From assembly GCF_002188635.1 (NCBI RefSeq), contig NZ_NINX01000019.1:1-64000 (forward strand): a stretch of 64,000 bases of DNA, in the 5' to 3' direction. Positions 32,118-45,495 of this stretch are shown here, piece by piece; within the stretch, counting starts at the first letter, position 1; each line of letters opens with the position of its first letter. The notes under the pieces were generated by a model that was given only the letters and a program-made list of their open reading frames with translations, had not been told where the DNA came from and did not search any database. The position numbers and the translations under genes are program-made. This DNA comes from Pigmentiphaga sp. NML030171. Its GTDB lineage: Bacteria > Pseudomonadota > Gammaproteobacteria > Burkholderiales > Burkholderiaceae_B.

Positions 32118-34235
32118 ATGGAACATGCCTGGCAATTCTTCCGCGCGGGCGGCGTCGATCAGGTATCGATCCGCTCGGGCGCCGATGTATGCCATCTCGA
32201 TCAGCTGGATCAGAAATTATGGGTGGCGCTGGCCTGCCCCACGCGCGGCATCGAGTTCGACCCCCGCACCCTCGACCTGATCGATACCGATGCGGACGGC
32301 CGCATCCGCCCCCCCGAACTGCTGGCCGCGTGCCGGTGGACATGCGAGCGGCTGCGTGATCCGGACCGGCTGCTGCAAGGCGGCGACACGCTGGCGCTGG
32401 ACGCCCTGTCCAACGGCGAAGCAGGCATACAACTGGCCGAGGAAGCCCGCCACATCCTGCAATTGCTGGGCAAGCCGGGCGATACCATCGGCCTGGCCGA
32501 CGTCGCCGATCGCAGTCGCCTGCTCGCGGCCATGCGCTTCAACGGCGATGGCGTCATCACGGAAGACACGGCGGAAGCGCCCGCGGTCCGCGCCGCGATC
32601 CGCCGCATCATGGAGACCCATGGCGGCGTAGAGGGGCTGGACGGCAAGCCTGGCACGGACCGGGCGCGCGCCGACGCCTTCTTCGCCGAGGCCGCGGCGA
32701 TCCGCCAATGGCGCGACAAGGTGTCGGGAGACCGCTCCGTCGTGCCGCTGGGCGACGACACCCCTGCGGCGATCCAGGCCGTGAACGCGGTACAGGCCAA
32801 GATCGAGGACTATTACGCGCGCTGCCGCCTGGCGGGCTACGACCGCCGGGCGGCTTCCGCACTGAACCCCTCGCAGGAGGAATACCGCAAGCTGTACGAC
32901 GAGGCGCTGACCCTGGGTTCGGATCACATCGCCCGCCTGCCGCTGGCGGCCATCGCGGCCGATCGTCCGCTGCCGCTGCGCGACGGCGTCAATCCCGCCT
33001 GGGCGCAGGCACTCGAGACCTTCCGTACCCGTGCCGCGGAACCCCTGCTGGGCACGCCGCTCGACACCCTGCCGGAGCCGGCGTGGCGGCAGTTGATGGC
33101 GCGGCTGGAACCGGCCCGGAACTGGCTGGCCGCCAAGCCGCAGACACGGCTCGACGCCGTGGCCGTGGCCGACCTCATGGCCATGCTGGAGGACGGCACC
33201 GAAGCAGCGGTCAAATCCCTGCTCGACGCCGACGAGAAGATCGAGCCGCGCACCACGCGCATGGGCGATCTGGAAAAACTGCTGCGCTTCCAGCGCGACC
33301 TCGCGCACCTGCTCGACAACTTCGTCTCGTTCAAGGACTTCTACCGCCGCGAAGGCGCGATCTTCCAGGCCGGCACCCTGTACCTGGACGCGCGCAGCTG
33401 CGAGCTGACGGTGCGCGTCGAGGACGCGGCCCGCCATGCGGCCCTGGCTGGCCTGGCCAAGGCCTACCTCGTCTACTGCGATTGCCGCCGCCAGGCGGAG
33501 AAAATCACCATCGTCGCGGCGGTCACGGCCGGCGACGTGGACTTTCTTTTCGTCGGCCGCAACGGCGTGTTCTACGACCGCCAGGGCCGCGACTGGGACG
33601 CCACCATCGTCAAGATCATCGAGAACCCCACCAGCATCGCGCAGGCCTTCTTCTCTCCGTACAAGAAGTTCGTACGCATGATCGAGGAACAGGTCGCCAG
33701 GCGCGCCGCCGCCAGCGACGAGGCGGCGCAGGGCAAGCTGGGCTCGCTCGCGGCCAACCTGGTCACCGCCGACAGGAAGGACGGGACGGCACGGCCAGCC
33801 ACGCCGGGCAAGGTCGACGTGGGCACCGTGGCCGCGCTGGGCGTCGCGCTCGGCAGCATCAGCACGGTCCTGGTGGCGGTCTTCACCAAGTTCGTGGACC
33901 TGGGCTGGTGGATACCGGTGGCGCTGCTGGGCATCGTCCTGAGCATCTCCGGCCCCAGCGTGCTCATCGCCTGGCTCAAGCTGCGCCAGCGCAGCCTGGG
34001 CCCGCTGCTGGACGCCAGCGGCTGGGCCATCAATGGCCGCATGAAGATCAACGTCAAGCTGGGCGGCTCGCTCTCCCGCATGGCGCGCATCCCGCCGGAC
34101 GCGGGACGCAACCTGCGCGATCCCTTCGCCGAGCGGCACGGCAAGGCCTGGGGCCTGGCCATCGTCCTGGCCCTGGTCGCGCTGGCCTGGCTGGCCTGGC
34201 GCGCGGGACTGCTGGATACGGTCCCGGCGATATAA
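32118..34235 (+). CDS. Uncharacterised membrane protein with an EF-hand calcium-binding loop
   Basis: A 705-residue protein I do not recognise. Near the N-terminus residues 56-67 form a textbook EF-hand loop: Asp56, Asp58, Asp60, Gly61, Ile63 and Glu67 at the exact canonical positions. A second, degenerate loop (FNGDGVIT) follows at about 141-148. A large soluble region of about 420 residues, helix-rich by eye, follows, including the conserved-looking segment FLFVGRNGVFYDRQGRDWD. Near the C-terminus are two hydrophobic segments (about 572-600 and 605-630) and a last one at about 678-698. No signal peptide, so the long N-terminal part is probably cytoplasmic. It stands alone between the DUF2501 gene and the ABC importer operon. 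Confidence 0.8.
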   Translation: MEHAWQFFRAGGVDQVSIRSGADVCHLDQLDQKLWVALACPTRGIEFDPRTLDLIDTDADGRIRPPELLAACRWTCERLRDPDRLLQGGDTLALDALSNGEAGIQLAEEARHILQLLGKPGDTIGLADVADRSRLLAAMRFNGDGVITEDTAEAPAVRAAIRRIMETHGGVEGLDGKPGTDRARADAFFAEAAAIRQWRDKVSGDRSVVPLGDDTPAAIQAVNAVQAKIEDYYARCRLAGYDRRAASALNPSQEEYRKLYDEALTLGSDHIARLPLAAIAADRPLPLRDGVNPAWAQALETFRTRAAEPLLGTPLDTLPEPAWRQLMARLEPARNWLAAKPQTRLDAVAVADLMAMLEDGTEAAVKSLLDADEKIEPRTTRMGDLEKLLRFQRDLAHLLDNFVSFKDFYRREGAIFQAGTLYLDARSCELTVRVEDAARHAALAGLAKAYLVYCDCRRQAEKITIVAAVTAGDVDFLFVGRNGVFYDRQGRDWDATIVKIIENPTSIAQAFFSPYKKFVRMIEEQVARRAAASDEAAQGKLGSLAANLVTADRKDGTARPATPGKVDVGTVAALGVALGSISTVLVAVFTKFVDLGWWIPVALLGIVLSISGPSVLIAWLKLRQRSLGPLLDASGWAINGRMKINVKLGGSLSRMARIPPDAGRNLRDPFAERHGKAWGLAIVLALVALAWLAWRAGLLDTVPAI

Positions 34236-34358
34236 GCTTATTAGTAACAATACGTTGATGTTTTATTGACGAAAGCATAACGTTTACCTCCATCCACAGC
34301 CCCGCCGGCCTTCGCGCCGCCGCGGAGCCGTTCCTCCACCATCGACCCGAGAACCGAC
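34236..34358 (+). promoter_or_regulatory. AT-rich promoter region of the ABC importer operon
   Basis: The first 50 bp (34236-34285) is strongly AT-rich and includes ATAAGCTTAT, TTGATG at 34255-34260 and CATAAC at 34276-34281 with a short 15-bp spacing, plus TTGACG at 34266-34271. One of these probably forms the promoter for the long operon starting at 34359. No firm -10 can be assigned. Confidence 0.4.
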
Positions 34359-35486
34359 GTGCCGACGCGACTCCCCTTCCGCCGCCTGCTGGCGGCCACC
34401 GCTGCCTCCGGCCTGTTGTCCGCCCCCGCCCTGGCCGCGGAACCGCCGATCACCGTCGGCCTGTTCACCCACTTGTCCGGCAACTTCGCCGAATACGGCG
34501 CGAGCTTCAAGAACGCCATCGAGCTCTATCTGGACAAGGTCAATGCCGACGGCGGCATCAATGGCCGCCCGATCAGGCTGGTGGTCGAGGACGACCGCAA
34601 TTCGCCGCAGGAAGCCGCCACCGTGGCGCGCAAGATCGTGGCCACGCCCGGCGTGGTGCTGGCCATCGGTTCCTGGTCGACCACGGCGTCGCTGGCGGCG
34701 GCGCCCATCTTCACCGAGGCGAAGATCGCGCAGATCAGCCCCACCTCGTCGCACCCGGACTTCAGCAAGCAGAGCCCGTATCAGTTCCGGCAGAACAATA
34801 CCGACGACGTGCTGGCCCAGTACAACGCCGACACCATCCACAAGCAGCTCAAGGCCAACCGCATCGTCATCCCGTACTCGCAGGACGACTGGGGCCTGTT
34901 CACCGTCAAGGCCACCTCGGCCGCCATCGAGAAGGACGGCGGCAAGGTGCTGCTGACCGAGGCCGTGATGCCCAACGCCCGGGACTTCCGGCCGCTGGTC
35001 AGCAAGATCAAGTCGCTCAAGCCCGACGGCGTCTTCCTGGCCCTGCCCTACCAGGAAGCCTCGATCTTCATCCAGCAGCTGCGCCAAGCCGGCGTCGACA
35101 TTCCGGTGGGCGGCGGCGTGCCGCTGACCTCGCCCAAGTTCATCGAACTGGCGGGCAAGGCCGCCGAGGGCGTGGTCGTCCACAGCATCTTCTTCGCCGG
35201 CGATCCGTCCAAGAAGGCCTTCGTCGACGCCTACCGCGCCAAGTACAACCGTACGCCCGACCAGTTCGCCGCGCTGGCCTACGACGCAGCCGGCGTGGGC
35301 GTGGCCGCCATCCGCCGCGTCGTGCAATCGGGCAAGCCGCTGACCGGGCAGAGCGTGCGCGACGAACTGGCGGGCGGCCCCGCCTACGAGGGCGTCACCG
35401 GCGTGACCAAGTACGAGAACGGCAACGTCCGCAAGGCGCCCACTTTCCTGGTGATACGCAACGGCGAATTCCAACTGAACAAGTAA
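34359..35486 (+). CDS. ABC transporter substrate-binding protein, LivK/branched-chain type
   Basis: A 375-residue periplasmic binding protein: twin-Arg-poor signal peptide (LPFRRLLAATAASGLLSAPALA) then EPPITVGLFTHLSGNFAEYGASFKNAIELYLDKVNADGG, typical for the type 1 branched-chain amino acid receptor family. The later CCC-like hinge segments IGSWSTTASLAAAPIF and FAALAYDAAGVGVAAI fit. The start is a GTG at 34359. These receptors also bind amides, aromatic acids and other small organic acids, so the name says little about the substrate. First gene of the 11-kb operon ending at 45,495. Confidence 0.88.
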   Translation: MPTRLPFRRLLAATAASGLLSAPALAAEPPITVGLFTHLSGNFAEYGASFKNAIELYLDKVNADGGINGRPIRLVVEDDRNSPQEAATVARKIVATPGVVLAIGSWSTTASLAAAPIFTEAKIAQISPTSSHPDFSKQSPYQFRQNNTDDVLAQYNADTIHKQLKANRIVIPYSQDDWGLFTVKATSAAIEKDGGKVLLTEAVMPNARDFRPLVSKIKSLKPDGVFLALPYQEASIFIQQLRQAGVDIPVGGGVPLTSPKFIELAGKAAEGVVVHSIFFAGDPSKKAFVDAYRAKYNRTPDQFAALAYDAAGVGVAAIRRVVQSGKPLTGQSVRDELAGGPAYEGVTGVTKYENGNVRKAPTFLVIRNGEFQLNK

Positions 35487-35562
35487 TTTCCTTCAGCGCC
35501 TGCCGCCGGCCCGCCTCACGGCGCGGCCGGCGCAGCCTTTTCCGGCCACCGCACTCATTCCC

Positions 35563-37443
35563 ATGCTCGAATTATTCGCCAGCCAGATTCTGAACGGCCT
35601 GGCCATCGGCCAGGTCTACGCCCTGATCGCGCTCGGCTTCTCGCTGGTGTTCGGCGTCTCCAATCTCATCAATTTCGCGCAGGGCGCGCTGTTCATGCTG
35701 GGCGCCTTCATCGCCTTCACCGGCGTGGCCGTGCTGCAACTGCCGCTGCCGGTCGCGGCCACCGGTTCGGTGCTGATCGTCGCGCTGCTGGGCATGCTGC
35801 TCGAACGGGTGGCGCTGCGGCCGCTGGAGAACGCGCCGTACATCGCCCCGGTGCTGTCCACGCTGGCGATCAGCCTCATCATCGAACAACTGGCCGAGAT
35901 CATCTGGTCTCCCGAGAGCCAGTCCTTCCCGGTGTCGTTCGACGAAGCCACCTACTACTTCGGCAACGCCTACATCACCAGCACCGACCTGCTGATCTTC
36001 GGCTTCGGCGCGCTGGCCACGCTGGCCCTGACGCTGTTCCTGTCGCGCTCGTGGTGGGGCCGCGCGCTGCGCGCCACCGCGCAGGATCGCGACGCGGCGG
36101 CACAACTGGGCGTGCGCACCGGCAGCGTGCGGCAACTGGCCTTCGCCCTGGCTGGCGCCCTGGGCGCCTTGAGCGGCGTGCTGGTCGCGCTGTATTTCAA
36201 GAGCGTATTCCCGCAGATGGGGCTGCCCTTCGGCCTGAAGGGCTTCGCCGCGGCGCTGCTGGGCGGGCTTACCAGCACGCCGGGAGCGGTGCTGGGCGGC
36301 CTGCTGCTGGGCGTGGTCGAGACGCTGGCCAGCGCCTACGTCGGCGAAGGATCGCGCGACCTGGTGGCGTTCTGCCTGGTGCTGGTCTTCCTGGTGTTCC
36401 GGCCGCACGGGCTGCTGGGCGACCGTCGCCTGGACGCGCTGGGCGGCGCCAGCGGCGCGGCGGGCGCCATGCCGACCACCAGCGTGCTGGCCTCGTTCTC
36501 CAGCCAGCGCGGCGCCGTGCGCGCCTGGGAACTCCCGCCCTGGGGCTTCCTGGCGGCAGCAGCCGTGCTGGCGCTGCTGCCGGCGCTCACGCAGAACGCC
36601 TATTTTCTGCAGGCCGTGGTCTACGCCATGATCTTCGCCCTGCTGGTGGCCAGCGTCACGCTGGTCTCCGGGGCGCTGGGCGTGCTGTCCATCGGACATA
36701 CGGCCTTCTACGGCGTGGGCGCCTACGCGGTCGGGCTGCTGGCCCGCAATGCCGGCTGGCCGGCCGAGGCCGCGCTGATCGGCGCCGCCGCGGCCACCGC
36801 CTGTGTGGCGGTGGTGGCTGCCCTGCCGCTGCTCAAGCTCAGCGGCCACACGGCCGCGCTGGGCACGCTGGCCGTCGGGCAGATCGGCTATCTGGTGTTC
36901 ATGAGCTGGCTGGACGTCACGCGCGGCCCCATGGGGTTCATCGGCATCCCGGCGCCCAGGCTGGCGCTGCTGGGCGGACTGCCGCTGCCGAGCCTGGCCG
37001 GCAAGTTCTGGCTGGTCGCGGCCGTGGCCGGGATCGCCCTGTTCCTGGCGCAGCGCCTATTGGACTCCGGCGTGGGCCGGGCCTGGCGCGGCATACGCGA
37101 GGACCGGCTGGCGGCGCATACCGCCGGACTGCCGGTGCGCCGCTACCTGCTCGTGGGCTTCGCGTGTTCCGGCCTGCTGGCGGGCCTGGCGGGCGGCCTG
37201 TTCGCCTACGTGCAGAGCGTGGTCAGCCCCGAGAGCTTCACCGTCAGCGCCTCCATCCTGCTGTTGACCATCGCGGTGCTGGGGGGGCTGGGCAACCTGA
37301 CCGGCGCGGCGCTGGCCGGCTTCGCGCTGACCCTGCTGCCGGAACTGCTGCGGCCCTTCGCCGAATGGCGCATGGTCGCCTACGGCCTGGCGCTGCTGAT
37401 CATGCTGCGCCTGCGTCCGCATGGCCTCCTCGGAGCAAGATGA
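35563..37443 (+). CDS. Fused LivH-LivM branched-chain-type ABC permease
   Basis: A 626-residue inner-membrane protein that joins two permeases usually encoded separately. The first half (about 1-290) is LivH-like, opening LNGLAIGQVYALIALGFSLVFGVSNLINFAQGALFMLG and containing the late LGGLTSTPGAVLGGLLLGVVETL, here split in two parts by my reading. A soluble linker of about 35 residues (GGASGAAGAMPTTSVLASFS) follows. The second half is LivM-like (SVTLVSGALGVLSIGHTAFYGVGAYAVG, later RAWRGIREDRLAAHTAGLPVRRY). Fusion fixes the subunit ratio. It is followed by a 130-bp gap with palindromes, then the ATPase genes. Confidence 0.9.
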   Translation: MLELFASQILNGLAIGQVYALIALGFSLVFGVSNLINFAQGALFMLGAFIAFTGVAVLQLPLPVAATGSVLIVALLGMLLERVALRPLENAPYIAPVLSTLAISLIIEQLAEIIWSPESQSFPVSFDEATYYFGNAYITSTDLLIFGFGALATLALTLFLSRSWWGRALRATAQDRDAAAQLGVRTGSVRQLAFALAGALGALSGVLVALYFKSVFPQMGLPFGLKGFAAALLGGLTSTPGAVLGGLLLGVVETLASAYVGEGSRDLVAFCLVLVFLVFRPHGLLGDRRLDALGGASGAAGAMPTTSVLASFSSQRGAVRAWELPPWGFLAAAAVLALLPALTQNAYFLQAVVYAMIFALLVASVTLVSGALGVLSIGHTAFYGVGAYAVGLLARNAGWPAEAALIGAAAATACVAVVAALPLLKLSGHTAALGTLAVGQIGYLVFMSWLDVTRGPMGFIGIPAPRLALLGGLPLPSLAGKFWLVAAVAGIALFLAQRLLDSGVGRAWRGIREDRLAAHTAGLPVRRYLLVGFACSGLLAGLAGGLFAYVQSVVSPESFTVSASILLLTIAVLGGLGNLTGAALAGFALTLLPELLRPFAEWRMVAYGLALLIMLRLRPHGLLGAR

Positions 37444-37573
37444 AACCCACCCCCTACGCGCTACGCGCGCCCCCTCAAGGGGGCGGCACTGGCGGACCGG
37501 CAAAGCCGGATCCGCTGTGTCCTCGATCGAAACACGCGTCGCAACGGACTCCTCTTTGCCATGAACGACTGAT
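37444..37573. repeat. Palindromic intergenic repeat (REP-like)
   Basis: The gap between the permease and the first ATPase gene holds TACGCGC twice in tandem (37455, 37462), the hairpin GCCCCCT-CA-AGGGGGC (37469-37484) and a second hairpin CCGGC-AAA-GCCGG (37497-37509). Elements of the form CCCCCTACGC...CGCCCCCTCAAGGGGGCG are familiar to me as dispersed repeats between genes in Bordetella and Achromobacter. It may stabilise the upstream permease message or separate its expression level from the ATPases. Copy number could not be checked here; only one copy is in the window. Confidence 0.55.
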
Positions 37574-38434
37574 ATGACGACTCGCGATGAACAACGAGGA
37601 CTGCGGGTGGAGCGCCTGAGCCGCCATTTCCGCGGCGTCAAGGCGGTGGACGATGTCAGCTTCGCCGTCGCCCCGGGCCAGACCGTGGCGCTGGTGGGCC
37701 CCAACGGCGCCGGCAAGTCGACCCTGATCCAGTTGCTGAGCGGAGTCGAGAAACCTTCGTCGGGACATGTCTTCCTGGATGGCCGCCGCATCGACGGACT
37801 GGCCCCCGAGCACATCGCCCGGCTGGGCCTGGGCCGCAGCTTCCAGACCTCGCGCGTGTTCCCCGCCCTGAGCGTATGGGACAGCGTGATGCTGGGCACC
37901 CAGGCCGGGCTGCTCGGCCGCGCGGGGTCCGCGCGGCTGGTCGATCCGCTGACTGAGATCGCCGGCGAACTGCTCGGCCTGCCCGTCTGGCGCCGCCGCC
38001 GGGCCGAGGCAGAGGAACGCGCCCGCGCGGCCCTGCAACGCTTCGGCGAACGGCTCTGGCCGCGGCGCGACCAGCCGGCCTACAGTCTTTCGTACGCGAA
38101 CCGCCGGCGCCTGGAACTGGCGCGCGTGCTGGCTGCCCGGCCGCGCTTCGTGCTGTTCGACGAACCGGCCGCCGGCATGAACCCCAGCGAAACCGCCGAA
38201 CTCACCGATCTGTTGCTCGCGCTGCGCGCGGAACAGCCGCAGCTCGGCATCCTGGTCGTCGAGCACAAGCTGTCCCTGGTCCGGCGCATCGCCGACCAGG
38301 CCATCGTCCTCAATCAGGGGCGGATACTGGCCACCGGCACCCCGGCCGAGGCGCTGGACCATCCCGAAGTCGTCGAAGCCTACCTCGGCCGCGCGCGCAG
38401 GCGGCCGGTCAACTCGGATGCCCATCTTGGCTGA
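37574..38434 (+). CDS. ABC transporter ATP-binding protein, LivG-like
   Basis: A 286-residue ATPase with Walker A GPNGAGKST, Walker B FVLFDEPAAGMNP and the switch His in VVEHKLSLV. The signature region reads SLSYANRRRLELARVL instead of the usual LSYGQQRRLEIAR; the signature Gly is replaced by Ala, which is unusual and may lower activity. The LivG-specific insertion between Walker A and signature (about 90-150) is present. It overlaps the LivF-like gene by 17 bp. Confidence 0.88.
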   Translation: MTTRDEQRGLRVERLSRHFRGVKAVDDVSFAVAPGQTVALVGPNGAGKSTLIQLLSGVEKPSSGHVFLDGRRIDGLAPEHIARLGLGRSFQTSRVFPALSVWDSVMLGTQAGLLGRAGSARLVDPLTEIAGELLGLPVWRRRRAEAEERARAALQRFGERLWPRRDQPAYSLSYANRRRLELARVLAARPRFVLFDEPAAGMNPSETAELTDLLLALRAEQPQLGILVVEHKLSLVRRIADQAIVLNQGRILATGTPAEALDHPEVVEAYLGRARRRPVNSDAHLG

Positions 38435-39209
38435 GCTGCCCTCTTCCTCCCCCCTGCTGCAACTGGACGCGGTCGACGTGCACTACGGCGCCGTCCAGGC
38501 CCTGTTCGGCGTCAGCCTGCGTGTCCAGGCCGGAGAAGTGGTCTCCGTGCTGGGCGGCAACGCGTCGGGCAAGTCCACGACCCTCAAGTCGGTGCTGGGC
38601 CTGGCCCGCCCGTCCAACGGACGCGTCCTGCTGGACGGCCGCGAGATCCAGGGCCTGGCGCCCGCCGAGGTCATCGGGCTGGGCGTGGCCAGCGTACCCG
38701 AGGGGCGCCGTGTGTTTCCGGACATGACGGTGCGCGAAAACCTGCTGCTGGGGGCCTACCCGCGGCGCCACGACAAGTCCGCCGTGGCCGCCGACCTCGA
38801 CGAGGTGTTCCAGGCCTTCCCGCGCCTGGCCGAGCGCCGGGGCCAGCTGGCCGGCACGCTGTCGGGCGGGGAACAGCAGATGCTGGCCCTGGGCCGGGCG
38901 TGGCTGCGGCGCGGGCGCCTGGTCTGCATCGACGAGCCGTCGATGGGCCTGTCGCCGAAATTCGTCGATGCGGTCTACGAGGTGCTGTTCCGCTGGAAGG
39001 CGTCCGGCCAGACCATCCTGCTGGTGGAACAGAACGCCCGCATCGCGCTGGAGCTGGCCGACCGGGCCTATGTGCTGCAGCACGGCCACGTGGTGCTGCA
39101 AGGCAATGCCGCCGATCTCGCGGCGGACCCCGCCGTGCAGCAGGCCTACCTGGGCGCGGAAGCCCCGGCCCGCGAATTGGAGGGGGCGCTGGCCCCCAAC
39201 GGAGAATGA
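38418..39209 (+). CDS. ABC transporter ATP-binding protein, LivF-like
   Basis: A 263-residue ATPase with Walker A GGNASGKST (GxNGAGKTT in most LivF proteins), signature LSGGEQQMLALGRAWL, Walker B LVCIDEPSMGLSP and switch His replaced by Gln in LVEQNARIAL, which is normal for LivF. It begins inside the end of the LivG-like gene. Its stop TGA overlaps an ATG at 39206; the downstream flavoprotein starts either there or at 39212. It is unusual that the transport genes run straight into metabolic enzymes. Confidence 0.9.
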   Translation: MPILAELPSSSPLLQLDAVDVHYGAVQALFGVSLRVQAGEVVSVLGGNASGKSTTLKSVLGLARPSNGRVLLDGREIQGLAPAEVIGLGVASVPEGRRVFPDMTVRENLLLGAYPRRHDKSAVAADLDEVFQAFPRLAERRGQLAGTLSGGEQQMLALGRAWLRRGRLVCIDEPSMGLSPKFVDAVYEVLFRWKASGQTILLVEQNARIALELADRAYVLQHGHVVLQGNAADLAADPAVQQAYLGAEAPARELEGALAPNGE

Positions 39210-39211
39210 AC

Positions 39212-40927
39212 ATGTCCCATCCCACCCTGCACACGCTGGAAACCGACGTGCTGGTGATAGGCGCCGGCGGTGCCGGCATGAGCGCGGCCATCGCCGCCTC
39301 GCAGGCCGGCAAGCGGGCCCTGCTGGCCGACCGCAGCCTGATCGGGCGCGGCGGCGCCACCATCATGGCCCAGATGACCGTGGCCGCCGCCCTGGGCGAA
39401 CAAGGGCCGGACCACTGGCAGCATCACCTGCGCGACACGCTGACGGCGGGCCGCGGCCTGTGCAGCGAACCCCTGGCCCGGCTGCTGTGCGAGGAAGGCG
39501 TGGACGCGATCCGCCTGCTGGACCGCTGGGGCGTGGGCTGGGCCCGCGACGGCGAGCGGATGGCACAGACCCGGGCCCCCGGCCACGACCGCCCCCGCTG
39601 CGTCTACGTCGACTACCTGAACACCGGCCCCGCGGTGGCCAAGACCCTGCGCGCGCAGGCCGCGCGCGAGCCCGGCGTGCGGCGCGTGGGCGACCTGCTG
39701 GTGGTGGAACTGCTGCGCAAGGACGGCCGCGTCACCGGCGCCGTGGCGCTGCACCTGGGCTCCGGCGACCCGGTCCTGATACGGGCCGGCGCCACCATCA
39801 TCGCCACCGGCGGCCTGACGCGCCTGTACCGCCGCAACAGCGCCTCGCTCAACATGGGCGGCGACGGTTTCGCGCTGGCCCTGCGCGCGGGCGCCCGGCT
39901 GATCGACATGGAGTTCGTGCAGTTCTTCCCCATCGGCCACCTGGCGCCGCGCCTGGTCGGCTTCGACCCCATCATGTGGGATCCCTTCCGCTACAAGCTG
40001 GGCGGCAAGCTGCTGAACAACCAGGGAGAGGAATTCGTCGAACGCTACGGCAACGCCGCCGAAGGCCAGGGCTACACCACCACCCGCGACGCCGCGACCT
40101 ACGCCATCCTGAAGGAGGTCGAGGCCGGCCGCGGCACGCCGGCCGGCGGCGCGTGGCTGAGCTTCCGTCACGTGCCGGAAGACACGCTGCGCGCGGCGTT
40201 CGGCCCCATCATCAACAAGCTGGCCAAGGCCGGCATCGATCTGACGAAGCAGATGATAGAAGTGGCGCCCATCGCCCACTATCACATGGGCGGCATCCGG
40301 GTGAACACCGACCTCGCCACCGACGTGCCCGGCCTGTATGCCGCGGGCGAGGCCGTGGGCGGCGCCAACGGCGCGAACCGGCTGTCGGGCAACGCCATCA
40401 CCGAGGCGATCGCCTTCGGACTGCGGGCCGGCCGCGCCGCGGCCGCCGACTGCCCGGAGCCGCCCTCGCTGGAAGCACTCGAGGCCCTGGCCCGCCCCTG
40501 GCTGCAACGGCTCGCGCCGCGCCACGGCGAGCCGGACGCGCTCAATGCCGCGTCCCTGATCGAGGAATTGCAGGCGCTCATGCAGGCGCACGTCGGCCCC
40601 TTCCGCACCGAGGCGGGCCTGCGGCAGGCTCTGGACGGGCTGGACGCATTGCGGACACGGGCCGGCAGCGACCTGCCGGGCGGCGGGCCGCAGGACCCGG
40701 TGCGGCTGGACACGCTGGACCTGCGCAACATGCTGCTGGTGGCCGAGGCCGTGACCCGCTGCGCGCTGGCGCGGCGCGAGAGCCGCGGCGCGCACCAGCG
40801 CGAAGACCATCCCGGGCAGGAAGACGCCTGGACGCTGAACCAGACCATCGCCTGGCGCGACGGCCAATGGACGCTGGCCACCCAGCCCGTCCAGCGCCTC
40901 GAGGCCACGCAGGAGGACATCGCATGA
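39212..40927 (+). CDS. FAD-dependent fumarate reductase/succinate dehydrogenase-like flavoprotein
   Basis: A 571-residue flavoprotein. FAD site near the start: VLVIGAGGAGMSAAIAASQAG, then GRGGATIMAQM. The later part contains HYHMGGIRVNTD and GANRLSGNAITEAIAFG, the active-site and FAD-contact parts of the SdhA/FrdA/L-aspartate oxidase family. The substrate is probably a small carboxylic acid or imide-derived acid; real succinate dehydrogenase is unlikely because no membrane anchor genes are present. The ATG at 39212 has GGAG seven bases upstream; the ATG at 39206 is too close. Its stop overlaps the ferredoxin-like gene (ATGA). Confidence 0.88.
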   Translation: MSHPTLHTLETDVLVIGAGGAGMSAAIAASQAGKRALLADRSLIGRGGATIMAQMTVAAALGEQGPDHWQHHLRDTLTAGRGLCSEPLARLLCEEGVDAIRLLDRWGVGWARDGERMAQTRAPGHDRPRCVYVDYLNTGPAVAKTLRAQAAREPGVRRVGDLLVVELLRKDGRVTGAVALHLGSGDPVLIRAGATIIATGGLTRLYRRNSASLNMGGDGFALALRAGARLIDMEFVQFFPIGHLAPRLVGFDPIMWDPFRYKLGGKLLNNQGEEFVERYGNAAEGQGYTTTRDAATYAILKEVEAGRGTPAGGAWLSFRHVPEDTLRAAFGPIINKLAKAGIDLTKQMIEVAPIAHYHMGGIRVNTDLATDVPGLYAAGEAVGGANGANRLSGNAITEAIAFGLRAGRAAAADCPEPPSLEALEALARPWLQRLAPRHGEPDALNAASLIEELQALMQAHVGPFRTEAGLRQALDGLDALRTRAGSDLPGGGPQDPVRLDTLDLRNMLLVAEAVTRCALARRESRGAHQREDHPGQEDAWTLNQTIAWRDGQWTLATQPVQRLEATQEDIA

Positions 40928-41295
40928 CATCGACCAACGACTCCATCCGCCTGAAGATCCAGCGCGCCGGCGCCGGCACCGAGGCCCGCGTCGTCGAATA
41001 CGACGTACCTCCCCAGGCTGCCGCGTCGCTGCTGGACGCGCTGCGCTGGGTGCGCGCGCACCAGGACGATACGCTGGCTTTCCGCTATGCCTGCATCAAC
41101 GCCAATGCCTGCAAGGAATGCATGATGCGCCTGGACGGCAAGGTCGTGTACGCCTGTCTGGCCAAGCTCGAGCCGGGCACCTCGCACACGGTCGAACCCC
41201 TGCCGAACAAGCCGCTGGTACGCGATCTCGTGACCGAGATCGCGCCGCCCAAGGAACGCCTGTTCGCCGGCGAGGGCGACGACGATGACGAATGA
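40924..41295 (+). CDS. Minimal 2Fe-2S (SdhB N-terminal-like) electron-transfer subunit
   Basis: A 123-residue protein resembling only the first domain of SdhB/FrdB. The beta-grasp domain starts SIRLKIQRAGAGTEARVVEYDV, as in SdhB, and the cluster Cys residues are C57, C63, C66 and C78 in the segment FRYACINANACKECM and VVYACL. The spacing is C-x5-C-x2-C-x11-C, one residue longer at the first gap than SdhB. The second domain, with the 3Fe-4S and 4Fe-4S clusters, is absent. It ends with an acidic tail (GEGDDDDE). It probably shuttles electrons from the flavoprotein upstream, with which it overlaps by four bases. Confidence 0.85.
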   Translation: MTSTNDSIRLKIQRAGAGTEARVVEYDVPPQAAASLLDALRWVRAHQDDTLAFRYACINANACKECMMRLDGKVVYACLAKLEPGTSHTVEPLPNKPLVRDLVTEIAPPKERLFAGEGDDDDE

Positions 41296-41833
41296 CGGCC
41301 GGCGCCCGGACGCGTCGGACGAGGCCGGCGAACGTCTGCGCATCCTGTCCTCGGCGCACCTGGCCACGGGTCCGCATGCCGAGCTGTCCGAGCTCGAGTT
41401 CGGGTTGATCATCGCCCACAATGCGTTCAGCCGCTGGATCGTGCGCTGCATGGCGGCGGCCGGCGCGGCCGACCTCGCGGTCACGGACGTGCTGGTGCTG
41501 CACCACGTCCACCATCGGAAGCGGGGCAAGAAACTGGCCGACATCTGCTTCACCCTGAACTACGAAGACACGCACGTCATCAACTACTCGCTGAAGAAAC
41601 TGGCTGGCATGGGCCTGGTGCGCGGCGAAAAAAGCGGCAAGGAAGTGCTCTACGCCACCACCGGGGAAGGCGCGGCGCTGATCGATCGCTTCCGCGCCGT
41701 CCGGGGCCGCTGCCTGCTTGCCAGCGTCGAAGGCGAACTGGCCGACGGCGCCTCCCTGTCCGACGTGGCCCGGCGCCTGCGCATGCTGTCGGGCCTTTAT
41801 GACCAGGCCGCCCGCGCGGCCTCATCGCTATGA
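41285..41833 (+). CDS. MarR-like winged-helix regulator within the operon
   Basis: A 182-residue winged-helix protein. It shows helix residues [24 protein letters not shown], then a DNA-binding region [25 protein letters not shown] and [38 protein letters not shown], with a wing like MarR proteins. It begins inside the end of the ferredoxin-like gene (11-bp overlap) and overlaps the hydantoinase gene by ATGA. A regulator buried in the middle of the operon it may control suggests direct feedback. Operator unknown. Confidence 0.82.
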
Positions 41834-44800
41834 ATACAACCTCCTCTTCCCCCGCCGACGATGCCCGTTGGGAATTCTGGATAGACCGCGGCGGCACCTT
41901 CACCGACGTGATCGGACGCCGCCCCGACGGCTCGCTGGCGACGGCCAAGCTGCTTTCCGAGAACCCCGGACGCTACGACGATGCCGCCGTCGAAGGCATA
42001 CGACGCCTGCTGGGGCTGGCTCCCGGCGAACCGGTACCCGCCGATCGCATCGAGGTCGTACGCATGGGCACCACGGTCGCCACCAACGCGCTGCTGGAAC
42101 GCAAGGGCGAACGCGTGTTGCTGGCCGTCACCCGGGGCTTTCGCGACGCCTTGCGCATCGCCTACCAGAACCGGCCGCGCCTGTTCGACCGCGAGATCGT
42201 CCTGCCCGAACAGCTCGCCAGCCTCGTGGTCGAGATCGATGAGCGCCTGGCCGCCGACGGCGCCATCGTCGCCGAACTGGACGAGGCGCAGGCCCGGTCG
42301 GCCCTGGCCGAAGGCCGGGCGCAGGGCTACCAGTCCATCGCCATCGCGCTCATGCACGGTTACCGCAACCCGGCGCACGAACTGCGGCTGGCGGCGATCG
42401 CGCGTGAACTCGGCTATGCGCAGGTCTCCGCCTCGCACGCCGTCTCGCCGCTGATCCGCTTCGTCGCGCGCGGCGATACCACCGTGGTCGACGCCTATCT
42501 GTCGCCCGTGCTGCGCCGCTACGTGGACCGTGTATCGTCCGCCCTGCCCGGCGTGCGCCTGCAGTTCATGCAATCGAGCGGCGGCCTGACCGACGCCCGC
42601 GCCTTCCAGGGCAAGGACTCCGTGCTGTCCGGCCCCGCCGGCGGCATCGTCGGCATGGCCGGCGTGTCGGCCGCCGCCGGCTTCGACCGCATCATCGGCT
42701 TCGACATGGGCGGCACCTCGACCGACGTATCCCACTATGCCGGCGAATACGAACGTACCTTCGACACGCTGGTGGCGGGCGTGCGGCTGCGCGCGCCCAT
42801 GATGAGCATCCACACGGTGGCCGCCGGCGGCGGATCCATCCTGCGCTTTGACGGCACGCGGCTGCGCGTGGGCCCCGAATCGGCCGGCGCCGATCCCGGG
42901 CCCGCCTGCTACCGGCGCGGCGGACCACTGACCGTCACCGACGCCAACGTCATGCTGGGCCGCATCCAGCCTGCGCACTTTCCCGCCGTGTTCGGTCCCG
43001 GTGGCGACCAGCCGCTGGATGCCGACGTGGTCCGCGCGCGCTTCGCCGAACTGGCCGGCGAAGTCGAGCGCGGCACCGGCCGCGCCACCACGCCCGAGGC
43101 GCTGGCGCACGGCTTCCTGGAGATCGCGGTCACCAACATGGCCAACGCGATCAAGCTGATTTCCGTGCAGCGCGGCTACGACATCACCCGCTACACCCTG
43201 ACCACCTTCGGCGGCGCGGGCGGCCAGCATGCCTGCGCCGTCGCGGACGCGCTGGCCATGCCGCGCGTGCTGATCCATCCGCTGGCCGGCGTGCTGTCCG
43301 CCTACGGCATGGGCCTGGCCGTCGCCACCGCCGTGCGGGAACGCTCGGTGGAGCGCCGCTTCGACGACGACGGCCGCGCCGAGGCGCGCCGGGTGCTGGA
43401 CGAACTGGGCGCCGCGGCCAAGGGCGAACTCCAGGCCCAGGGCTGCGAGGCGGCCGACATCCGGATCGCCGAGCGAGCCTATCTGCGCTACGAGGGTACC
43501 GACACCGCGCTGCCGGTGCCGCTGGGCGAGACCTCGGACATGCTGGCCGAATTCGAGCGCGCCTATCGCCAGCGCTTCGCCTTCCTGATGCCCGGCCGCG
43601 CGCTGGTGATCGATTCCGTGATGGCCGAGGCCACCGCCGGGCAAGGCCCCCAGAGCGCGCGCGCCGCCTGGTTCGGCCGCCCCGCGCGCGAGGCCGGCAC
43701 GCAACTGCAGGCCCGCGACAGCGTCGCCATCCATGCCGGCGCATGGCAGGACAGCCCCCTTTACGCCGCCGCCGACCTGCGGGCCGGCGACGTCATCGCC
43801 GGCCCCGCCATCATCACCGATGCCAACGCCACCACCGTGGTCGATCCCGGCTGGCGGGCCACCGCGACCGCGAACGGCGACATCGTGCTCGAACGCGCCC
43901 AGCCCCGGCCCCAGCGCCGCGCCGTCGGCACCGAGGCGGATCCGGTGATGCTGGAGATCTTCAACAACCTGTTCATGTCCATCGCCGAGCAGATGGGCTG
44001 GCGCCTGCAGAACACCGCGCACTCGGTCAACATCAAGGAACGCCTGGATTTCTCGTGCGCGATCTTCGACGCACAGGGCGACCTCGTCGCCAACGCCCCC
44101 CACATCCCGGTGCACCTGGGGTCCATGGGCGCCAGCGTCCGGGCCGTCATCGACAGTACCCAGGGCACGCTGCGGCCCGGCGACGCCTACGTGCTCAACG
44201 ACCCCTACGCCGGCGGCACCCATCTGCCCGACGTCACGGTCATCACCCCCATCTTCGACGAGGCCGGCACCCGCGTGCTGTTCTACGTGGGCTCGCGCGG
44301 CCATCACGCCGACATCGGCGGCCTGACGCCCGGCTCCATGCCGCCCGACTCGCGCACCATCGACGACGAGGGCGTGCTCATCACCAGCTTCCTGCTGGTG
44401 CGCGACGGACATCTGCGCGAGGCCGAGATGCGGCAGTTGCTGGCCGGCGCGCGGCATCCCGCGCGCAACATCGACCAGAACATCGCCGACTTGCGCGCCC
44501 AGGTGGCCGCCAACGAGAAAGGCCGCGAGGAACTCATGGCCATGGTGCGCTACTTCGGCCTGGACGTCGTGCAGGCATACATGGGCCACGTGCAGGACAA
44601 CGCCGAGGAATCCGTGCGCCGGGCCATCAGCCGCCTGCGCGACGGGAGTTTCGCGGTATCGCTGGACAACGGCGCGCAGGTGCGCGTGGCGGTCACCGTG
44701 GACCACGCCACCCGCAGTGCCACGCTGGATTTCACCGGCACGTCCAGGCAGTTGCCCAACAATTTCAACGCGCCGCGCGCCGTTACCTCGGCCGCCGTGC

Positions 44801-45495
44801 TGTACGTGTTCCGCACGCTGCTGGACGAGGACATTCCCATGAACGCGGGCGGCCTGAAGCCGCTCACCATCGTGGTCCCCGAAGGTTCGATGCTGAACCC
44901 GCGCTATCCGGCCGCCGTGGTGGCCGGCAACGTCGAAACCTCCACCTGCGTGACCAATGCGCTGTACGGCGCGCTGGGCATCATGGCCAGCAGCCAGCCG
45001 ACCATGAACAACCTGACCTTCGGCAACGCCCGCCACCAGTACTACGAAACCATCTCCGGCGGCTCGGGCGCGGGCGGCCGCTTCGATGAAAACGGCAGCC
45101 TGGCCGGCGGCTTCGATGGCACATCGGTCGTGCAGACTCACATGACCAATTCGCGCCTGACCGATCCGGAGGTACTGGAACTGCGTTTCCCGGTGCGGCT
45201 GGAACGCTACGAGATCCGACACGGTTCGGGCGGCGACGGACGCTGGCGCGGCGGCGACGGCGGCGTGCGCACGCTGCGGTTCCTGGAACCCATGACGGTA
45301 TCGCTGCTGGCCAACGGCTGGCACCATCCGGCCTTCGGCCTGTGCGGCGGGCAACCCGGCGCGCCCGGACTGGCTCGCGTGCTGCGCGCCGACGGACGGA
45401 TCGAGCCGCTGGACCACGCGGATCGGGCCGAACTGCGGGCGGGCGACCGGGTGGAGATCGAAACGCCCGGCGGCGGAGGCTACGGGCCCGCGTGA
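41830..45495 (+). CDS. Fused hydantoinase/oxoprolinase (HyuA-HyuB) enzyme
   Basis: A 1221-residue ATP-dependent amide hydrolase of the hydantoinase/5-oxoprolinase/acetone carboxylase superfamily. The first part (about 1-690) is HyuA-like with actin-type nucleotide sites [14 protein letters not shown] near the start and [12 protein letters not shown] near 295. The second part (about 700-1221) is HyuB-like, opening [18 protein letters not shown] and containing [16 protein letters not shown] and [17 protein letters not shown]. It would open a lactam, hydantoin or cyclic imide using ATP; relatives also carboxylate ketones. Fusion in one chain is as in 5-oxoprolinase. Context favours a ring-opening of the imported substrate. 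Its start overlaps the regulator stop. Confidence 0.9.

Follow-up and report, generated by a model that had tools for sequence, protein, structure and literature searches.

We examined a gene block in a 64,000-nucleotide stretch of DNA (hereafter the window) from Pigmentiphaga sp. NML030171 (contig NZ_NINX01000019.1, positions 1 to 64,000; genome of 5.86 Mb in 57 contigs). The block is probably an operon for uptake and ring opening of a pyroglutamate-type compound; its importer is not the one found in better-known relatives, and a redox enzyme of uncharacterised activity is added. Open reading frames (ORFs) and their translations revealed eight plus-strand genes. The first four encode a LivK-type periplasmic binding protein (34359..35486, 375 aa; Peripla_BP_6, 5.6e-67; best-scoring solved chain 3hut), a LivH-LivM permease fused in one ORF (35563..37443, 626 aa; two BPD_transp_2 stretches), a LivG-type ATPase (37574..38434, 286 aa; ABC_tran and BCA_ABC_TP_C) and a LivF-type ATPase (38418..39209, 263 aa; ABC_tran). 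These are followed by an SdhA/FrdA-like flavoprotein (39206..40927, 573 aa; FAD_binding_2, 1e-67, and Succ_DH_flav_C, 3.4e-23), a 2Fe-2S mini-ferredoxin consisting of the N-terminal domain of SdhB only (40924..41295, 123 aa; Fer2_3, 2e-18), a MarR-like winged-helix regulator (41285..41833, 182 aa; HTH_27, 4.7e-20) and a fused HyuA-HyuB protein, HyuAB (41830..45495, 1221 aa; Hydantoinase_A, 1.1e-107, and Hydantoinase_B, 2.3e-199), which by its site residues and tree position is probably a eukaryotic-type 5-oxoprolinase. A putative operator of the in-operon regulator lies in an AT-rich stretch 5' of LivK (34253..34280, plus strand). The first-pass annotation, made from the letters of the window, had described a compact same-strand block from 38418 with the ABC importer directly upstream. 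Pfam assigns each protein as it was described there, and compactness is borne out, with overlaps of 17, 4, 4, 11 and 4 bp from LivG onward and no junction without one. The importer genes are indeed upstream on the same strand; this part is packed more loosely than the remainder, with gaps of 76 bp on the 5' side and 130 bp on the 3' side of the permease gene.

The importer is a complete Liv-type (HAAT) ABC system by Pfam and NCBIfam models, with a binding protein, two permease domains and two ATPases; in the fused permease, the best LivH-model stretch falls in the first half and the best LivM-model stretch in the second. Comparison of the gap between LivHM and LivG (37444..37573) among genomes revealed an insertion resembling repetitive extragenic palindromes (REP-like), with a GCCCCCTCAAGGGGGC hairpin, in the window and in genomes G151, G199 and G179 (G and L denote our numbers for genomes and loci). 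Most of the 130 bp looks like this insertion, because the same gap measures 2 and 8 bp in the same-genus genomes G190 and G135, and the insertion might split expression of the importer subunits. In LivK, Val254 aligns with a Glu of 4n0q, and Ile occupies the position in 8 of 12 aligned sequences. We take the 4n0q Glu to be the acidic residue that holds the ligand alpha-ammonium in amino-acid binders, so its replacement speaks against an alpha-amino-acid ligand.

The block order recurs in several Alcaligenaceae genera at 55–86% protein identity, which, judged by these comparisons, is more than chance; an oddity confined to one strain, a case that would have undone the first-pass proposal, was thereby rejected. 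A close mini-ferredoxin match (E 1.9e-33 or better, the next match reaching only E 1.8e-13) was present in 20 of 200 genomes of the family, the Pigmentiphaga genome included, giving 21 matches with 52 to 100% identity. The full order of importer, flavoprotein, ferredoxin, regulator and HyuAB was found in 13 of the 20 non-self family loci, 3 of the 13 being without the regulator. Among the others, L041 has importer, flavoprotein and ferredoxin and is missing a close HyuAB; L044, L053 and L054 run from flavoprotein through HyuAB without an importer in as much of the flank as was fetched (3.5 kb for L044); L048 and L043 end at contig ends, L043 showing no HyuAB past the regulator; and L055 is a second, distant copy. 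At E 1e-16, non-self mini-ferredoxin matches numbered 5 in 300 order, 0 in 369 class and 1 in 398 phylum genomes, samples that overlap in part. Importer, regulator or HyuAB are thus sometimes missing or located elsewhere, which argues against a strictly obligate block. The same-genus genome G043 has only a 27-residue mini-ferredoxin remnant; its locus (L187, 10341-14677) keeps the last residues of that protein, the regulator and HyuAB, with importer and flavoprotein unmatched within the fetched stretch. An NHL-repeat gene is inserted between ferredoxin and regulator in L071 (11107-12048, Pfam run on the L071 copy) and also in L073, and L075 has a similar-sized gap there. The whole block, at 55–78% identity, stands in a record named Serratia marcescens (L088), by transfer or through a mixed assembly.

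Presence of the mini-ferredoxin is statistically linked to that of fused HyuAB, relatives of which were found in 92 of the 200 genomes sampled from the family and in 73 of 300 from the order, own and block-type copies counted. In the family sample, all 20 mini-ferredoxin genomes carry a fused HyuAB, compared with 72 of the 180 others (p 5e-8); the counts are 8/8 vs 16/35 by genus (p 0.005) and 20/20 vs 59/122 among genomes of at least 3 Mb (p 2e-6). Named genomes yielded 324 flavoprotein relatives, the best 80 of which were fetched with their flanks. The ferredoxin follows the flavoprotein in 79 of these 80 loci, the exception (L108) being cut; a close importer is present in 18, and fused HyuAB in the flanks of 24, comprising 17 with the window arrangement and 7 in alphaproteobacteria. 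In the alphaproteobacterial loci HyuAB lies 5' of flavoprotein and ferredoxin in 6 of 7 and is divergent in L146, and such importers as appear in the flanks belong to the NMT1 type (by Pfam, for L106 and L147). In quick trees, with SH-like approximate likelihood ratio test (SH-aLRT) support only, the window-type flavoproteins fall together in a clade of 23 rows, the six that are linked to HyuAB in alphaproteobacteria make up a different clade, and the HyuAB tree parts the two types likewise. The linkage therefore either arose repeatedly or is ancient and has been lost many times.

HyuAB is one chain with the A domain before the B domain (Hydant_A_N, Hydantoinase_A, Hydant_A_C and Hydantoinase_B by Pfam; Hydantoinase_A at 214-499 and Hydantoinase_B at 704-1220 of 1221 aa). 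The ATP motifs of the family, DxGGTxTD, DMGGT and GxxPGP (PMC8453981), are kept as DRGGTFTD with Asp19, DMGGTSTD with Asp292 and GADPGP at 353. By alignment, the metal tetrad of the B part is also kept, Asp740, His798, Asp801 and His825 corresponding to Asp41, His99, Asp102 and His124 of CapB. Assignment as caprolactamase CapA/CapB was rejected, with 337.8 and 166.5 bits against an NCBIfam equivalog cut-off of 1000, and acetophenone carboxylase was rejected on an NCBIfam score under its cut-off. The four other hydantoinase loci of the genome (L002-L005) are split pairs, 27–39% identical to HyuAB where they match it, and HyuAB is the only fused member of its group found in the genome; PxpA (PF03746) gave no match in this genome, and 5 of 14 control genomes were positive.

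A relative of the window's regulator adjoins HyuAB in L192-L194, L196 and L206 (60–63% identity, among the matches listed), and the tripartite ATP-independent periplasmic (TRAP) receptor of L206 shares 273 of 300 residues (91%) with 2PFZ. We take 2PFZ to be Bordetella DctP7. Relatives of this receptor with at least 59% identity were found in 7 of 28 chosen genomes, less than 2 kb from a fused HyuAB in 5 of the 7; of the 20 genomes with the mini-ferredoxin, G148 alone has one, the matches in G151 and G179 being 29–30% identical. According to three reports, structures of the Bordetella receptors were determined with pyroglutamate, and a eukaryotic-type 5-oxoprolinase gene lies nearby (PMC5812351, PMC12344293, PMC13274462). 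In our tree (which lacks L188, L192 and L173, where no ORF spans the whole match, and whose filter of more than 800 aligned residues drops L197, L198 and L002-L005), the block HyuAB proteins form one clade that groups with HyuAB copies beside the pyroglutamate-type TRAP receptor. Because close copies adjoin a related regulator and a 2PFZ-like TRAP receptor, HyuAB is very likely one of the fused 5-oxoprolinases of eukaryotic type. The simplest account of these relationships would be descent of the operon from a regulator-HyuAB unit, in which the TRAP importer was exchanged for the Liv-type ABC importer and the redox pair was gained.

A matrix for the conserved element 5' of LivK was built from six regulator-HyuAB promoters of other genera only, with sites picked by eye. 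These six come from nine distinct loci in which the regulator is first; the other three, L128 of an alphaproteobacterium and L197 and L198 of another family of the order, had no similar site by eye and were left out. In the 64-kb window the two best places for the matrix are 34244 (minus strand) and 34253 (plus strand), with scores of 24.8 and 24.5, and the best score elsewhere is 16.9; the element pattern was found once in the whole genome at up to 3 mismatches. Scores of at least 22 were obtained in 13 of 16 LivK upstream regions, and scores of at most 14.2 in L046, L051 and L052. In the 13 positive regions, 0 to 59 of 1000 shuffles scored as high, some regions thus being weak alone; in the three negative ones, 539, 871 and 999 did. 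The L046, L051 and L052 genomes have no regulator copy at E 1e-10. In Achromobacter aloeverae, the element is present and the block is without the regulator, but a regulator copy (84% identity) lies 34 kb away. Presence of the element thus matches presence of the regulator in all 16 genomes, the element occurring in 13 of 13 with a block-type regulator and 0 of 3 without (Fisher p 0.0018, for related genomes and a split noticed after scoring).

The redox pair departs from its solved relatives, of which the best-scoring in a PDB profile search were succinate dehydrogenases and fumarate reductases. Arg294, His358 and Arg392 of the flavoprotein, invariant in 18 aligned sequences, align with FrdA residues that we take to be the catalytic arginine and one of the two carboxylate sites. 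In all of the same 18 sequences, Phe241 and Trp258 stand where FrdA has His and Thr, which presumably bind the second carboxylate, and the equally invariant Ala51 stands at the position of the FrdA His that, as we assume, binds FAD covalently. In the mini-ferredoxin, Cys57, Cys63, Cys66 and Cys78 are invariant in 19 aligned sequences, the C-x5-C spacing exceeds that of the three aligned solved chains by one residue, and only Fer2_3 is present, without the C-terminal cluster domain. Scores fall below the NCBIfam cut-offs for sdhA_frdA (331.2 bits, cut-off 567.3) and dhsB (60.8 bits, cut-off 88). An ordinary succinate dehydrogenase was rejected on the replaced second-site residues and covalent-FAD His and the truncated iron-sulphur subunit. 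With the second site and the covalent-FAD His replaced, the substrate should carry a single carboxylate, with the remainder of the molecule bulky or planar, and FAD should be bound non-covalently; a 5-oxoproline ring would fit this site, as would other lactam acids. For the mini-ferredoxin, electron exchange is possible only with an outside partner. Reading the flavoprotein substrate from other neighbours was rejected as an approach, the contexts being mixed and giving no single answer. Loci such as L143, L120 and L139 have the pair near molybdenum-hydroxylase-type genes, and some also carry UbiD-like or HpaB-like genes (all named by eye from translations), neighbours that suggest heterocycle catabolism. 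In L074 and L118, the pair adjoins split hyuA/hyuB genes 33–37% identical to HyuAB.

We favour, with reasonable though limited confidence, a reading in which the operon serves the import of a lactam carboxylate of the 5-oxoproline (pyroglutamate) type, HyuAB opens its ring to glutamate and the redox pair acts alongside. The Liv-type importer would bring the compound in, the A half of HyuAB would activate the lactam with ATP, and the B half would open the ring at its metal site, giving glutamate. The flavoprotein and ferredoxin would add two electrons to, or remove two from, the imported compound or a near derivative of it; in the simplest case the ring bond adjacent to the carboxylate would be dehydrogenated or reduced, with electrons passing between FAD, the 2Fe-2S cluster and the outside partner; such a step would let forms that HyuAB cannot use reach the L-5-oxoproline pool. 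The regulator would control the operon from the element 5' of LivK. Sequence comparisons support the gene block and its conservation, the HyuAB grouping, the catalytic residues, the pairing of regulator and element and the importer swap; the exact substrate, what the flavoprotein catalyses and in which direction, and whether regulation is positive or negative are matters that we infer. The first-pass annotation had suggested a dedicated route for a cyclic amide, imide or lactam-like compound. The route fits, narrowed to a 5-oxoproline-type compound by the grouping of HyuAB with TRAP-linked copies, the joint occurrence of element and regulator and the separate linkage of HyuAB with flavoprotein and ferredoxin in alphaproteobacteria; the missing or displaced parts and the flavoprotein loci without fused HyuAB speak against a strictly obligate block.

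Several observations weigh against the 5-oxoproline reading. L-5-oxoproline itself requires no redox step, and we came across no Liv-type receptor known to bind pyroglutamate. The co-occurrence of ferredoxin and HyuAB weakens with genome size, being only 12/12 vs 51/71 among genomes of at least 4 Mb (p 0.028), and in the order sample HyuAB is present in 4 of 5 non-self mini-ferredoxin genomes, G462 being without. Fused HyuAB is absent from the flanks of 56 of the 80 flavoprotein loci, some flanks being cut by contig ends, and at E 1e-200 from 9 of 48 genomes with the pair, the remaining 39 having one (genomes drawn from 50 of the 80 loci, two of which share a genome, with one left out). The flavoprotein pair can therefore work without HyuAB; five of the nine HyuAB-less genomes (L120, L123, L124, L130 and L139) belong to one Nitrobacteraceae clade of the flavoprotein tree. 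The membership of HyuAB with characterised eukaryotic enzymes is taken from the papers and from general background; no eukaryotic 5-oxoprolinase turned up in the collections searched. In the Bordetella work, use of 5-oxoproline by B. pertussis could not be demonstrated and the TRAP membrane parts there seem mutated (PMC5812351, PMC12344293, PMC13274462).

The strongest alternative, which we regard as unlikely yet serious, is that importer, flavoprotein and ferredoxin form a catabolic unit for another cyclic compound, such as a substituted lactam, imide or hydantoin, or 2-oxothiazolidine-4-carboxylate; HyuAB would open the oxidised or reduced product, and its 5-oxoproline ancestry would be history only. 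The block HyuAB proteins do fall in a clade that excludes the TRAP-linked copies, their importer is not that of the TRAP-linked loci, and alphaproteobacterial HyuAB-flavoprotein-ferredoxin sets lie beside NMT1-type importers and TauD dioxygenases (L106, L147), with a cysteine dioxygenase also in L106. However, a similar promoter element and a related regulator accompany HyuAB in the loci with pyroglutamate-type TRAP receptors, and HyuAB is the sole fused group member found in a genome where PxpA is absent. The HyuAB-flavoprotein-ferredoxin stretch of L106 (354-5200) makes 2-oxothiazolidine-4-carboxylate a lead, this compound being a 5-oxoprolinase substrate that yields cysteine. Less probable still is the joining in one transcript of two unrelated functions, the second an ordinary 5-oxoproline salvage by regulator and HyuAB, as the many flavoprotein loci without fused HyuAB and the importer and flavoprotein pair of L072-L074, with no fused HyuAB seen alongside, would allow, but on the trees the linkage of HyuAB with the pair takes two separate arrangements, L146 has a further, divergent one, and the element paired with the HyuAB regulator sits 5' of LivK.

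Among known systems, the 5-oxoproline-type operon proposed here is close to the Bordetella-type pyroglutamate cluster, in which the TRAP receptors DctP6 and DctP7 lie near a eukaryotic-type 5-oxoprolinase gene and of which like loci occur in genomes of the family. L192-L196 and L206 share with the block a related regulator (58–63%), fused HyuAB (66–68%) and a similar promoter element, but have a TRAP importer and no flavoprotein-ferredoxin pair, whereas the block has both a Liv-type ABC importer and the pair. Eukaryotic 5-oxoprolinases (OPLAH, OXP1) likewise have A then B in a single chain, with the ATP and metal motifs kept here; HyuAB differs as a member of a bacterial operon. Caprolactamase CapAB and the ATP-dependent hydantoinases share the superfamily and catalytic residues of HyuAB, but are composed of two separate subunits. 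With FrdAB/SdhAB, the pair shares the flavoprotein family, catalytic Arg, one carboxylate site and the N-terminal 2Fe-2S domain; it lacks the covalent-FAD His, has the second carboxylate site replaced, the iron-sulphur subunit truncated and C-x5-C spacing, and no membrane anchor gene is in the block. PxpTABC of Corynebacterium glutamicum also combines transporter, oxoprolinase and regulator for pyroglutamate, but its enzyme and transporter families are unrelated to those of the block and its regulator is of the GntR type (PMC13274462). Judged by titles and opening abstract lines, none of the open-licence papers listed describes the gene order of the block or a bacterial enzyme for further pyroglutamate forms; genes for N-methylpyrrolidone (nmp) are a lead only, and no paper among those listed is on them by title. 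Upstream of the block lies a 705-aa ORF (window 32118-34235) without a Pfam match, which adjoins LivK in G151 and has no match seen in L037-L040.

Fused HyuAB proteins are widespread in the order and mostly carry only a generic name, and the regulator, promoter element and relatives of this operon connect one branch of them with substrates of the pyroglutamate type. An uncharacterised FrdA-like enzyme and its stripped-down 2Fe-2S partner accompany fused HyuAB in two bacterial classes. It is a tentative suggestion, and one we hold to be rather improbable, that the pair is a new kind of enzyme adding or removing two electrons on the 5-oxoproline ring (for example, of 5-oxo-D-proline or a dehydro-5-oxoproline), through which forms otherwise of no use to a eukaryotic-type 5-oxoprolinase would become accessible to it, and that the pair is a general partner of this 5-oxoprolinase across Proteobacteria. 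If a redox step on this ring does take place, the pair would provide bacteria with an enzyme for further forms of pyroglutamate.

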